Shown here in pieces: positions 29,462 to 33,155 of a DNA stretch of 64,000 nucleotides. The position numbers were made by a program, and so were the translations under genes. The number at the start of each line of letters is the position of its first letter. Position 1 is the first letter of the stretch. Below the pieces are notes generated by a model, which searched no databases, was not told the DNA's origin, and saw only the letters and a list, made by a program, of their open reading frames with translations. The stretch is from Streptomyces formicae (GTDB lineage Bacteria; Actinomycetota; Actinomycetes; Streptomycetales; Streptomycetaceae), in contig NZ_CP022685.1 of the NCBI RefSeq assembly GCF_002556545.1, forward strand, positions 3,100,001-3,164,000, given 5' to 3'.

Positions 29462-30757
29462 TTACCAGCGTGGCACCGCCGGAGTCACCCACTCCGGATC
29501 CACCGCGCGCATGGCCGCGGCGTCGTCCCTCTCCCGCATCGCGCGGTGCTCCTCGTCCCGCCACCGGGCGTGCAGGACGGCGAGCGCGTCCCGGTCGAGC
29601 TCGACGCCGAGCCCGGGGGTGTCGGTGACCGCGACCCGTCCGTCCACGAACCGCGTCCGCGAGGTCAGCACGTCCTCCGACTGCCACGGGTAGTGCGAGT
29701 CGCAGGCGAAGTCGAGCGCGGGCACGGTCGCCGCCACCTGCGTCATCGCGGCCAGGCTGATGCCCAGGTGCGTGTTGGAGTGCATCGAGATCCCGACCCC
29801 GAACGTGCGGCAGAGCGCGGCAAGTTCACGGGTGCGCCGCAGGCCGCCCCAGTAGTGGTGGTCGGAGAGCACCACCTGCACGGCGCCGGTGGCGAACGCC
29901 TCGGGTATCTCCTCGAAGGTGGTCACGCACATGTTCGTGGCCAGCGGCACGGAGGTGCCCGCGGCGACCCGGGCCATCGCGGGCGTGCCGAGCGCCGGGT
30001 CCTCCAGGTACTCCAGTACGTCCGCGAGCTCGGCGGCGACCTTCAGCGAAGTCTCCACCGACCAGGCCCCGTTGGGGTCGAGCCGCAGCGGCCGCCCGGG
30101 GAACGCGTCGGCCAGCGCGCGGATCGCGGCGATCTCCTCGTCCGGCGGGAAGACACCGCCCTTGAGCTTGAAGGAGGAGAACCCGTACCGCTCGGCGAAG
30201 AGCCGCGCCTGCGCAACGACGCCGGCAGGGTCCAGGGCCGCGCCCCAGGGGTCGTCGCCCTCGGCACCGGGGTGCGCGGCCCACTTGTAGAACAGATAGG
30301 CGCTGTACTCCACGGCGTCCCGCACCTTGCCGCCGAGCAGCGCGTGCACGGGCAGGCCGAGCGCCTTGCCGAGCGCGTCGAGGCACGCCACCTCGAACCC
30401 GGAGACGACGGAGAGCCGCAGCTTGTCGGCGGTCTGCACACCGCGAAGACCGCCGACGTCCACGGAGTCGTCGACCCGCGCGCCGTCCACGGCCACCTCG
30501 TCCGCGAGTGTGAACAGCCCGTTCAGATCGGCGACTTCCCGCCCGACCAGCCGCTCGGCGAACGGCCGTGCGAGCTCCAGATACTTGCCGTCCCCGTACG
30601 TCTCCCCGATCCCCACCACACCACCGGCCGTGACCACCTCGATGATCAGGCGCGGGGTGTAGGGCTGATGCACGCCCTGGGTGTTGAGGAGCGGCGGATC
30701 AGCGACGAGAACGGGAGTGAGACGGACGTCCGTGATAACCAGGCCCTGTCCATACAT
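29462..30757 (-). CDS. gudD: Glucarate dehydratase-like enolase-superfamily enzyme
   Basis: 431 residues. Enolase-superfamily barrel with base motif SFKLKGGVFPP (KxK) near 200, metal ligands in LRLDPNGAWS near 228, and catalytic histidine in MHSNTHLGISLAAM near 331, the pattern of glucarate dehydratases. LDFACDSHYPWQSEDV is also typical. It would convert D-glucarate to 5-keto-4-deoxyglucarate. The ATG at 30757 sits 8 nt after a good -10 box, so the message is probably leaderless; an in-frame GTG at 30778 lies upstream of the predicted transcript start. Confidence 0.85.
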   Translation of the reverse strand: MYGQGLVITDVRLTPVLVADPPLLNTQGVHQPYTPRLIIEVVTAGGVVGIGETYGDGKYLELARPFAERLVGREVADLNGLFTLADEVAVDGARVDDSVDVGGLRGVQTADKLRLSVVSGFEVACLDALGKALGLPVHALLGGKVRDAVEYSAYLFYKWAAHPGAEGDDPWGAALDPAGVVAQARLFAERYGFSSFKLKGGVFPPDEEIAAIRALADAFPGRPLRLDPNGAWSVETSLKVAAELADVLEYLEDPALGTPAMARVAAGTSVPLATNMCVTTFEEIPEAFATGAVQVVLSDHHYWGGLRRTRELAALCRTFGVGISMHSNTHLGISLAAMTQVAATVPALDFACDSHYPWQSEDVLTSRTRFVDGRVAVTDTPGLGVELDRDALAVLHARWRDEEHRAMRERDDAAAMRAVDPEWVTPAVPRW

Positions 30758-30765
30758 GAGAACGC

Positions 30766-30794
30766 AGACTAGGTACACGAACAGCGACCGTCAA
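30766..30794 (-). promoter_or_regulatory. Promoter for the glucarate dehydratase gene (leaderless)
   Basis: On the minus strand TTGACG (30794-30789) and TAGTCT (30771-30766) are spaced by 17 bp. The -10 box ends 8 nt before the ATG, so transcription would begin at or next to the start codon. This is one of the best consensus promoters in the window. Confidence 0.7.
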
Positions 30795-30805: not shown

Positions 30806-32002
30806 CTAGCCGGAGAGCTCGGCCTCGATCAGGTCCGCGGCCCGAGTCGTACCCCCCTCACCCCGGGCTTCCGCCTTCAACCGCGCGGAGCGCAGGGCAA
30901 CCTCAGGATCCGACGTCAAGGCGAGCAACGCCGCCCGCAACGCGTCGCCCGTCGCGTCAGCGGTGTCGAGACGCCGGGCGACCCCCAACTCCACCAGGCG
31001 ATCCGCGTTCATCGGCTGCTCCGCCCCCTGGGGCACGGCGATCATCGGCACCCCGCAGAAGAGCCCTTCGGAACTGCTCCCCATGCCCGCATGGGTGACG
31101 AACGCGTCGGCCTGCTCCAGGATCGCCAACTGCGGCACCCAGGAACGGACTTCGACATTGACCGGAAGATCACGCCCGAGCTCCGCAGGATCCACGTGCT
31201 TGCCGATCTGCAACACCACGTGCCACCCGGGAAGGTCCCCGAAGGCGGCCACGCACTGCCGGTAGAACTCCGGCTGCTGGGTGTACGAGGAGCCGAGCGA
31301 GACCAGGAGCACCTTCTCCGCCCCCGCGGGCCGCGCCCAGCTCTCCTGCTCGGCGCGACCGCCGAAGCACGGCCCGACGAAGTCGATCCGCTCCGGATCG
31401 ACCGTGTCGGCGTGCGGCTGCATGGCGCGCGGGATCGTGGCGATGCCGCGCGGGGGCATCCCGGAGAACTCCGCCACGTCCAGGGTGGTGGCCCCGCACC
31501 CGGCGAGCCACTCCTTGAAGCGGGCCTCCAGGGCGTCGGCGCCCGGCAGTTGACCGAGGTACGCGCCGACGTCCTCCTGGTAGCTGCCCCAGGCCACGAA
31601 GGTCGGCGACAGCTGCACGAGCGGGCGCCCCTGCGCCTCGGCGAGCGCCCGGGCGACATAGGCGCCGATGTCGTAGAGATAGAGGTCGGCGGGGTCCTCG
31701 TCGTACGCCGCGTGGAGCTGCGGGAGCACCGCCATCGCGTCGTCGAGGAAGAGCGAGCTGGCCTCGATCGGGTCGTCGGGCCAGATGTTGTCGCGGAAGG
31801 GGAGCGTGGAGTCGTACGGGACGAGTTCGGCGCCCGTGGGCTCGATGAGAGCGGCGGTGGCCGGGTCGTTGGCGTACGTCACGCGGTGGCCGCGCGCCGC
31901 CAGCTCGCGGATGACTTCGAGGCCGGGCAGCACGTGGCTGACCATCGGCACGCCGATCATGGCGATGTGGGCGCGGCGACGGGGAAGTCGGCTGGATGAC
32001 AT
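30806..32002 (-). CDS. Macrolide-type glycosyltransferase (MGT/OleD family)
   Basis: 398 residues, GT1 family, GT-B fold. N-terminal IAMIGVPMVSHVLPGLEVIRE carries the catalytic His (SHVLP), and the donor-binding block is HAGMGSSSEGLFCGVPMIAV followed by PQGAEQPMNADR near 300-325. This is the group of UDP-glucose-dependent enzymes that inactivate macrolides in Streptomyces (Mgt, OleD, OleI). There is no biosynthetic cluster nearby, so it is probably a stand-alone resistance or detoxification enzyme. AAGGA lies 7 nt before ATG 32002. A leader peptide with alternative stem-loops is found upstream. Confidence 0.9.
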   Translation of the reverse strand: MSSSRLPRRRAHIAMIGVPMVSHVLPGLEVIRELAARGHRVTYANDPATAALIEPTGAELVPYDSTLPFRDNIWPDDPIEASSLFLDDAMAVLPQLHAAYDEDPADLYLYDIGAYVARALAEAQGRPLVQLSPTFVAWGSYQEDVGAYLGQLPGADALEARFKEWLAGCGATTLDVAEFSGMPPRGIATIPRAMQPHADTVDPERIDFVGPCFGGRAEQESWARPAGAEKVLLVSLGSSYTQQPEFYRQCVAAFGDLPGWHVVLQIGKHVDPAELGRDLPVNVEVRSWVPQLAILEQADAFVTHAGMGSSSEGLFCGVPMIAVPQGAEQPMNADRLVELGVARRLDTADATGDALRAALLALTSDPEVALRSARLKAEARGEGGTTRAADLIEAELSG

Positions 32003-32037
32003 GAGAGTTCCTTCGCGTACAGAAAGCTACGGATGAG

Positions 32038-32097
32038 GACACGGCGGCCCGCCGCCACGGCCCTCGAGGGGCGGGCGGGGGCCGAAAGGGCCGTGTC
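32038..32097 (-). promoter_or_regulatory. Alternative stem-loops in the glycosyltransferase leader
   Basis: On the transcript, a segment starting at the leader stop codon (TGACACGGCCC) can pair either with GGGCCGTG (CACGGCCC at 32056-32063 with 32088-32095 on the plus map) or with the more distal GCCGTGTC (32038-32045 with 32090-32097). The second pairing encloses a further GCCCGCC/GGCGGGC stem. The two structures exclude each other. Confidence 0.6.
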
Positions 32098-32125
32098 AGC
32101 CGTAGATCTGCGCGATGGTGTCCAT
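32096..32125 (-). CDS. Candidate leader peptide of the macrolide glycosyltransferase
   Basis: A nine-codon ORF, MDTIAQIYG, followed by TGA, ending 93 nt before the glycosyltransferase ATG. Its stop codon overlaps the first arm of a set of competing stem-loops. A promoter-like TTCGAC-18-TACGGT would start transcription at the A of its ATG, giving a leaderless leader. Short peptides whose translation stalls with a macrolide regulate erm and similar genes; whether this one stalls ribosomes is inference. I do not recall this sequence as a described leader. Confidence 0.55.
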   Translation of the reverse strand: MDTIAQIYG

Positions 32126-32132
32126 GAACGGG

Positions 32133-32162
32133 ACCGTAACCCACCGCCCGCGATCAGTCGAA
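32133..32162 (-). promoter_or_regulatory. Predicted promoter of the glycosyltransferase leader
   Basis: TTCGAC (32162-32157) and TACGGT (32138-32133) on the minus strand with an 18-bp spacer; the -10 box ends 7 nt before the leader ATG. It overlaps the end of the adenosine deaminase-like gene. Confidence 0.45.
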
Positions 32163-33155
32163 CGAATAAGCCTCGACCTCGGCGAGGTACTTCGCGCGCA
32201 GCGCCTCGTCCGCCGCGTCGCGGTCGAGGAAGGACGCCTCGAAGGAGTTCCGCGCGAGCGTCCGGAGCCGCTCGTGGTCGATGCCGAGCGCCTCGCGCAC
32301 CGCGTGGAAGGTGTCTTCGACGTATCCGCCGAAGTACGCCGGGTCGTCGGAGTTGACCGTGCACATCAGGCCCGCGTCGAGCATCCGGGCCAGCGGGTGC
32401 TCCTCCAGGACGTCGATGGCGCGCAGCCGGACGTTGGAGAGCGGGCAGAGCGTCAGCGGCACCCGGTCCCGCACCAGGCGCTCGACCAGGTCCTGGTCCT
32501 CCATGCAGCGCAGACCGTGGTCGATGCGCTCGACCCGCAGCACGTCGAGGGCCTCGGTGATGTAGGCGGGCGGCCCCTCCTCGCCCGCGTGCGCCACGAG
32601 CCGGAGTCCGAGCGCGGCCGCCGCCTTGTACACCTCGCGGAACTTGACGGGCGGGTGGCCGACCTCGGCGGAGTCCAGGCCCACGCCGATGATCCTGTCG
32701 AGGTACGGCTTCGCCGCCTCCAGCGTCTCCAGGGCCGACTCCGCGGACTGGTCGCGCAGGAAGCACATGATGAGCCGCGTGGAGACGCCGTGCCGCTCCT
32801 CGCTGCGCTCCAGGGCGCGGGAGAGGCCCTCGATGACGGTGCCGATGGGGACGCCGCGCGCCATGTGGGCCTGCGGGTCGAAGAAGATCTCCGCGTGCCG
32901 CACGCCCTGTGCGGCCGCGCGCGCGAGATAGGCGTCCGCGAGCTCCTCGAAGTCGGCCTCGGTGCGCAGCACCGCCATCAGGCCGTAGTAGAGGTTCAGG
33001 AAGGTCTGGAGGTCGTCGAAGAGATAGGCCCTGCGCAGCTCTTCGGTGTCCGCGTACGGGAGTTCGACGCCGTTGCGCGCGGCGAGGGCGAAGGCGAGCT
33101 CGGGTTCGAGGGTGCCTTCGATGTGGAGGTGGAGTTCGGCCTTGGGGATCGGCAT
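32154..33155 (-). CDS. Adenosine/adenine deaminase family protein
   Basis: 333 residues, TIM-barrel metal-dependent deaminase. Motifs: KAELHLHIEGTL near 5-16 (two zinc-binding His), HAGEEGPPAYI near 197 (His and catalytic Glu), IDHGLRCMED (His), and NSDDPAYFGG near 282 (zinc Asp). The segment RHAEIFFDPQAHMARG near 115 resembles adenine deaminases of the Aah1 type more than true adenosine deaminases, so adenine or another 6-aminopurine may be the substrate. Gene stands alone between RNase Z and the glycosyltransferase. Confidence 0.88.
   Translation of the reverse strand: MPIPKAELHLHIEGTLEPELAFALAARNGVELPYADTEELRRAYLFDDLQTFLNLYYGLMAVLRTEADFEELADAYLARAAAQGVRHAEIFFDPQAHMARGVPIGTVIEGLSRALERSEERHGVSTRLIMCFLRDQSAESALETLEAAKPYLDRIIGVGLDSAEVGHPPVKFREVYKAAAALGLRLVAHAGEEGPPAYITEALDVLRVERIDHGLRCMEDQDLVERLVRDRVPLTLCPLSNVRLRAIDVLEEHPLARMLDAGLMCTVNSDDPAYFGGYVEDTFHAVREALGIDHERLRTLARNSFEASFLDRDAADEALRAKYLAEVEAYSFD

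Follow-up and report, generated by a model that had tools for sequence, protein, structure and literature searches.

In Streptomyces formicae a nine-codon open reading frame stands ahead of a gene for a macrolide-family glycosyltransferase (MGT), which raises the question of whether this frame is a leader peptide that controls the gene in response to macrolides and by what route it would do so. The preliminary description of the window, the whole 64,000-nucleotide stretch of DNA analysed and the one to which all positions refer, had placed the frame MDTIAQIYG-TGA upstream of the MGT start, and it is present there on the minus strand (Table 1) in the gene order adenosine deaminase, leader ORF and MGT. 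The MGT product scored 374.7 bits with TIGR01426, above the cut-off of 260, which identifies it as a macrolide family glycosyltransferase, while NF033129, the NCBIfam model of the macrolide-inactivating glycosyltransferase subfamily, gave 483.7 bits and its cut-off of 700 was not reached. The best solved relatives of the protein were Kcn28 and OleD chains. Inducible mgt/lrm resistance was reportedly described in S. lividans in 1991. An enolase-superfamily gene (29462-30778, minus strand), glucarate-dehydratase-like at a score below cut-off, starts 27 nt past the MGT stop and may be co-transcribed with MGT.

Table 1. Features of the leader region and neighbouring genes in the window.
Feature	Position	Strand	Basis or remark
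Leader ORF MDTIAQIYG-TGA, 9 codons	32096-32125	minus	predicted leaderless; Q[I/L]YG-stop family
-35-like hexamer TTCGAC	32157-32162	minus	inside 3' end of adenosine deaminase gene
-10 hexamer TACGGT	32133-32138	minus	7 nt ahead of leader ATG
P1 5' strand, codons of I-A-Q-I-Y-G (RBS-proximal helix)	32100-32115	minus	fold, family conservation and clade consensus fold
P1 3' strand CCGTAG..TCTG..CGCGA, reaching into SD GAAGGA	32013-32032	minus	folds
P2 5' strand GACACGGC, overlaps leader stop codon	32090-32097	minus	folds
P2 3' strand GCCGTGTC	32038-32045	minus	folds
GC-rich inner hairpin, between P2 strands	32046-32083	minus	folds
MGT Shine-Dalgarno (SD) sequence GAAGGA	32009-32014	minus	sequence and fold
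MGT, macrolide-family glycosyltransferase, 398 aa, presumed target gene	30806-32002 (start 32002)	minus	TIGR01426
Adenosine deaminase gene, upstream, same strand; 3' end holds leader promoter	32154-33155	minus	

Conservation and predicted promoter of the leader

The preliminary description had left it to relatives to show whether the leader is conserved, and it is kept upstream of MGT in 53 of 80 relatives (the best 80 of 182 confirmed, from named genomes), comprising 47 with the strict CARNTNTAYGGN-stop and six near variants ending in PIYG, PIYE (twice), QIYS, QICG and RIYS. The strict pattern occurred at 48 of 88 loci, the window's own included. A permissive pattern (CAR, any NTN, TAY, GGN and any stop) returned these 48 loci, all of the form CAG-[ATC 39, CTC 8, ATG 1]-TAC-GGC-TGA, and the stop was therefore UGA at 48 of 48 strict loci even though any stop was permitted. 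Judged by record titles, the leader-bearing taxa were Streptomyces, Kitasatospora, Actinoalloteichus, Nocardia, a Rhodococcus record, Actinopolymorpha, Parafrankia and Sphaerimonospora.

A set of 72 leader rows, 65 of them distinct, was pooled from the pattern searches with a TANNNT box required 5-9 nt before the start. The 65 peptides were seven (3), eight (28) or nine (34) residues long and ended in QIYG (46), QLYG (12) or other tetrapeptides (7), a constancy that is partly built in since the rows were found by tetrapeptide patterns. Residues ahead of Q[I/L]YG varied widely, the leucine codon was CTC in 12 of 12 cases with CTG having been permitted, and the isoleucine codon was ATC in 51 of 52 (one ATA). 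A further variant, MFFQILLYG, was found at L053. On these comparative grounds the leader ORF is real and conserved, and we infer that it is translated. By eye, L064 carried upstream of MGT a short leader-like ORF, MDFPR-stop, together with a TAAGGT box and a degenerate arm, and is possibly a decaying or reduced version of the leader.

The promoter-like TTCGAC-18-TACGGT of the preliminary description, with its +1 at the leader ATG, was recovered as both hexamers at the 18-nt spacing, and a promoter scan whose consensus is E. coli-type listed no promoter at the leader. TANNNT was located 6-7 nt ahead of the start codon at all 48 strict loci, which are 46 rows of the pooled set plus L011 and L033, set aside there solely for a missing gene anchor. 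The 65 rows, whose selection had required a box at some spacing from 5 to 9 nt, divide into 48 with a spacing of 7 nt and 17 with 6 nt, and in 2 of them an SD-like tetramer preceded the leader. This close spacing of box and start codon, together with the scarcity of SD-like sequence, predicts that the leader is translated from a leaderless transcript that starts at its ATG. The only terminator-like site of a strict consensus scan was located at 32171-32187 (minus strand), in the 3' end of the adenosine deaminase gene and just upstream of the leader promoter.

The WblC promoter, as set out in the passages of PMC7157823 devoted to it, has GAAAWY 3 bp upstream of the -35 element, a 16-19 bp spacer and TANNNT. 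GAAA was found at the corresponding position in 30 of the 65 rows, and strict GAAAWY in 14, compared with 0-1 of 65 at nine shifted positions, so that WblC-type promoters are suspected in the family. The window's own promoter has an AT-rich GCTTAT at this position and no GAAA.

Pairing of leader codons with the ribosome-binding region

The leader region of the window folded at -67.6 kcal/mol against a shuffle mean of -47.8 (z -5.09), and none of 200 shuffles was as good. Chance, that is a short ORF beside GC-rich hairpins in a GC-rich intergenic stretch, draws on the fact that short ORFs and GC stems are common in such genomes; set against this z score, the cross-genus conservation, the promoter spacing and the compensatory changes described below, it is scarcely credible.

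The preliminary description had proposed a switch between two mutually exclusive stems, GACACGGC/GCCGTGTC and CACGGCCC/GGGCCGTG, and these were followed through the window clade, which has seven members. Both stems can be drawn and keep most of their pairs among these relatives, the first retaining 8, 8, 7, 8, 8, 8 and 6 of 8 pairs and the second 8, 8, 7, 8, 6, 7 and 7 of 8. Only GACACGGC/GCCGTGTC was populated in folding, with a mean ensemble pair probability of 0.94-1.0 in five of the seven and 0 in L002 and L006, while that of CACGGCCC/GGGCCGTG was 0 in all seven, and enforcing the latter in the window gave -56.9 versus -66.0, a cost of about 9 kcal/mol. The two-stem switch is accordingly not supported, the second stem keeping 6-8 of 8 pairs and never being populated. 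The consensus fold of the seven sequences lengthens the RBS-proximal helix P1 by pairing codons 3-6 with the SD region, and P2, GACACGGC/GCCGTGTC, closes the inner hairpin; the RNAalifold covariation term was unfavourable (+1.19), with two-sided changes in 3 of 35 pairs.

The earlier pairing scheme had overlooked the main helix, P1, in which leader codons face an arm next to the ribosome-binding site (RBS). This helix is independent of the CACGGCCC/GGGCCGTG stem. In the window fold it consists of 32100-32105 paired with 32027-32032 and is extended towards the SD sequence by CAGA/TCTG and TCGCG/CGCGA. Across the family, the CAG-ATC-TAC-GGC codons pair with a GCCGTAGACCTG-like stretch immediately followed by the ribosome-binding motif (GAAACGAG and variants).

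Pairs were counted from this ribosome-binding motif as an anchor, picked irrespective of pairing and placed in 55 of the 65 rows, the ten rows outside the count including all seven of the window clade. On average 10.18 of 12 positions were paired in the 55 rows and 51 of them had at least 9 pairs, whereas partners slid by 1-6 nt gave means of 1.6-5.7 and other 12-mers between leader and arm a mean of 4.4, with 0.14% reaching 9 pairs. The four rows with fewer than 9 pairs were L024, L031, L072 and L076. A MAFFT alignment of 59 sequences put the 3' arm of the window clade out of register and was for this reason not used for pair counts.

Compensatory changes, which the preliminary description had suggested looking for in its own two stems, were found on both sides of P1 in three lineages: CCG..GAG with CTC..CGG in L044 and L046, which belong to one genus, CGG with CCG in L072, although total pairing there is only 8 of 12, and an ATG codon with a matching C in L007. 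At L053 the helix was rebuilt using codons further upstream. For the N-terminal codons, leaders paired only slightly better with their own RBS zone than with swapped ones, 104 of 10,000 permutations being as good in a comparison uncorrected for relatedness. At least 9 of 12 arm pairs were present in 58 of 65 leader-bearing MGT genes and in 6 of 34 leader-lacking ones, the latter taken as the best of all offsets and the comparison omitting L053, L140 (same upstream sequence as L049), L160 and L161; the 3' arm thus appears to go together with the leader.

P1 is, by these comparative counts, a conserved helix of the leader family. The first base of the I/L codon was mostly mispaired (A-C in 30 and C-C in 7 of 55 rows), yet a search permitting any NTN returned only I, L or M at that codon, so that something besides pairing seems to constrain the 5' strand. 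This argues, short of proof, for a constraint on the peptide sequence as well. Comparison among relatives lends good support to the earlier proposal that a leaderless leader peptide acts on MGT by way of RNA pairing, and the proposal withstood the refuting condition set in the preliminary description, a lack of conservation of leader and stems between related species. What is conserved across the family favours a two-state switch with the leader codons as one strand of the RBS-proximal helix.

Proposed control of MGT and competing explanations

The reading we favour, with a probability of roughly 0.6, is a ribosome-mediated attenuator in which macrolide-dependent stalling on the leader would free the RBS region of MGT, with control probably exerted on translation initiation. 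An HrdB- or WblC-type promoter would give a leaderless transcript starting at the leader ATG. When no drug is present, ribosomes would complete the 7-9 codon leader and leave, and the freed Q-I-Y-G codons, in some clades with the preceding codons too, would pair with the 12 nt that directly precede the MGT SD sequence, a pairing expected to hinder 30S binding and keep MGT low. A macrolide in the exit tunnel would, by analogy with known leader peptides, probably stall the ribosome at Q[I/L]YG-stop, with the end of the leader peptide in the P site and perhaps UGA in the A site. The stalled ribosome would mask the P1 5' strand and free the RBS-proximal strand for MGT translation, and the enzyme, judged by its family, would glycosylate and inactivate the drug.

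When a ribosome was modelled on the leader end, the stretch -30 to -17 of MGT opened in 56 of 62 rows (the 65 minus three with a wrong start codon) and closed in none, and the SD sequence opened in 31 and closed in 3. Both stretches were picked once a wider one (-15 to +3) had stayed unchanged (0.477 free, 0.481 stalled and 0.483 with a control block). At the window locus the modelled SD sequence did not open (0.27 to 0.16), and the stretch upstream of it did (0.27 to 0.53). We therefore favour control of translation initiation with moderate confidence.

The same leader and sensing could instead act by premature termination of transcription, I-shaped or Rho-dependent, with P1/P2 or untranslated RNA stopping the polymerase unless a ribosome is stalled. 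This seems unlikely and is kept as the main rival because terminators without a U tract have been reported in Streptomyces and the wblC and are5sc uORFs have been reported to act on transcription. The strict consensus scan found no T-tract terminator-like site between leader and MGT, the sequence past P1 is the ribosome-binding site and is not U-rich, and no competing hairpin was populated in the window clade. GC-rich stems lacking a U tract can, however, end transcripts in Streptomyces, and U-less 3' ends occur in S. clavuligerus, according to the sections of PMC8269248 on transcript ends. The S. coelicolor are5sc uORF region and the wblC uORF act on transcription in the accounts excerpted from PMC12421871 and PMC7157823, while tiaA, in the portion of PMC12421871 that treats it, responded in translation reporters only.

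Under the favoured attenuator the signal would be a macrolide. This is a sound inference, and probably correct, because MGT passes TIGR01426, its best solved relatives are Kcn28 and OleD, and the peptide length and leader geometry resemble those of ErmCL and MsrDL. The leader might rather sense another ribosome-targeting drug (lincosamides, streptogramins or chloramphenicol) or general translation stress, and not macrolides specifically; the WblC-type boxes (GAAA 30/65 against 0-1/65) suggest broad promoter induction, and the same MGT clade is found elsewhere behind a Vat-like acetyltransferase or an ABC-F gene. We regard this as improbable, given that in the genomes searched the leader was found only before a macrolide-type glycosyltransferase and that the ABC-F neighbour scores best, if below cut-off, with TlrC/CarA/OleB/SrmB of macrolide producers. 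The conserved end comprises residues 4-9, which known arrest peptides place within reach of a tunnel-bound macrolide. Lincosamide-type drugs stalled S. coelicolor uORFs at the start codon in the experiments related in part of PMC12421871, a mode that would not need Q[I/L]YG.

The leader might also be an attenuator that responds to an amino acid or to tRNA charging, or might couple translation alone and sense no drug. The leaderless amino-acid attenuators of S. lividans, described in the relevant passages of PMC8079986, offer a parallel. Such a role is very improbable here, since no codon is repeated in a run, the peptide varies freely ahead of Q[I/L]YG and the downstream gene is not biosynthetic.

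Gene context, precedents and significance

Within the genomes searched, the leader family was found before one MGT clade only. In 150 genomes of the genus there were 29 pattern matches in 26 genomes, of which 20 were leaders with a promoter, all 20 preceding MGT; the other nine were not before MGT and lacked a leader ORF with a promoter. The pattern matched 18 times in 296 genomes taken from the class; eight of these matches were, by eye, leaders before MGT (four in one other family and two already in the genus set) and ten were non-leaders. No QIYG leader was found ahead of genes other than MGT in the 150 genus and 296 class genomes, and in the window genome the pattern occurs once. The OleD-like MGT paralogue of that genome (L082, C1:7384985, 56% identical) had no Q[I/L]YG leader that could be seen. 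By eye, an apparent MarR-type gene precedes it, and its ATG follows a TAAGGT box at a distance of 7 nt, a spacing which suggests that this paralogue is itself leaderless.

Thirty MGT loci with 67-100% identity to the query comprised 19 with the strict leader, one variant (MHFLEIYG), nine without a leader and one unreadable. In the nine, judged by eye, MGT follows an acetyltransferase (six) or an ABC-F gene (three), and in such arrangements leader and arm are usually both absent. Within this clade, MGT was preceded by an acetyltransferase at L026, L035, L037, L041, L045, L049, L054, L057, L059, L061, L073 and L074 and by an ABC-F gene at L080, L154, L156 and L162, assignments made by eye save for L037 and L154, which were checked. 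These loci have no strict leader, but most retain a GAAACGAGTGATC-like ribosome-binding motif. The L037 acetyltransferase matches the Vat family most closely (245 bits against a cut-off of 300) and has a divergent TetR-family gene beside it (Pfam TetR_N and TetR_C_11 above cut-off). For the L154 ABC-F protein the closest family was TlrC/CarA/OleB/SrmB, known from macrolide producers (531 bits against a cut-off of 800). The strict leader pattern was absent ahead of the acetyltransferase in the acetyltransferase-MGT operons, near variants being sought by eye only. At L061, one of the six leader-lacking genes that reach 9 pairs, a full leader-pairing arm, GCCGTAGACCTG, lies without a leader between acetyltransferase and MGT and looks like a relic, as if an operon gene had entered between leader and target.

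Rfam gave no match within positions 31800-32400 at E values up to 1, and no description of a Q[I/L]YG leader was found in the open-access literature, the body of papers covered. Drug-sensing leader peptides are a known kind; new here would be the leaderless ORF with its own codons facing the RBS, the end motif and the target. In ermCL-ermC, as summarised in the part of PMC13410324 concerned with it, a short leader peptide precedes the resistance gene, RNA structure hides the RBS of that gene and macrolide stalling exposes it, as would be expected here by analogy. The present leader differs in being predicted leaderless, in pairing its own codons beside the RBS with no competing stem populated, in its Q[I/L]YG-stop end and in having a glycosyltransferase as target.

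MsrDL-msrD has a very short leader, MYLIFM, on which erythromycin stalls the ribosome at the stop codon (PMC10314930, in its account of MsrDL), and here too the leader is short, at 7-9 residues, with the conserved ones abutting the stop. From the same account, however, msrD is controlled by an intrinsic terminator and the MsrDL stop is mostly UAA, as against UGA in 48 of 48 cases here. The are5sc and tiaA uORFs of S. coelicolor are likewise conserved tiny uORFs of Streptomyces antibiotic-resistance genes, but those presented in the pertinent part of PMC12421871 are MLV and MVGDDDISG, have ribosome-binding sites and stall at the start codon with LSAP drugs, not erythromycin.

The wblC/whiB7 uORF (Lee et al. 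2022, as cited in excerpts of PMC7157823 and PMC12421871) also senses translation stress in Streptomyces, and the same promoter class is suspected here; that riboregulator controls a regulator, works by transcription attenuation and responds to many drugs. The S. lividans amino-acid attenuators also have leader ORFs that are leaderless, and behind several of these lie hairpins with no clear U tract; in the passages of PMC8079986 that list them they differ in carrying codons for the sensed amino acid and in having biosynthetic, transport or tRNA-ligase targets.

A further-reaching proposal is that Q[I/L]YG-stop is a new macrolide arrest motif which would act at termination (UGA) on a leaderless ORF whose codons hide the RBS. 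In such a two-state sensor a single stretch would supply the arrest peptide, the stop context and the strand that masks the RBS; the sensor would serve one MGT clade across several actinomycete families and would lie behind a WblC-type promoter. We offer this tentatively, as a possibility that stands somewhat short of even odds.

With a leader switch in one arrangement and an operon with an acetyltransferase or ABC-F gene in the other, a single resistance gene seems to have come under two different controls. If the proposed attenuation is true, the 65 distinct leader regions with matching RNA arms would be a natural set for asking how a leaderless ORF senses and whether arrest occurs at termination, and an arrest sequence would be added to the short list of macrolide-sensing peptides. 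It would also account for the induction of a macrolide-inactivating enzyme in soil actinomycetes only when the drug is present.
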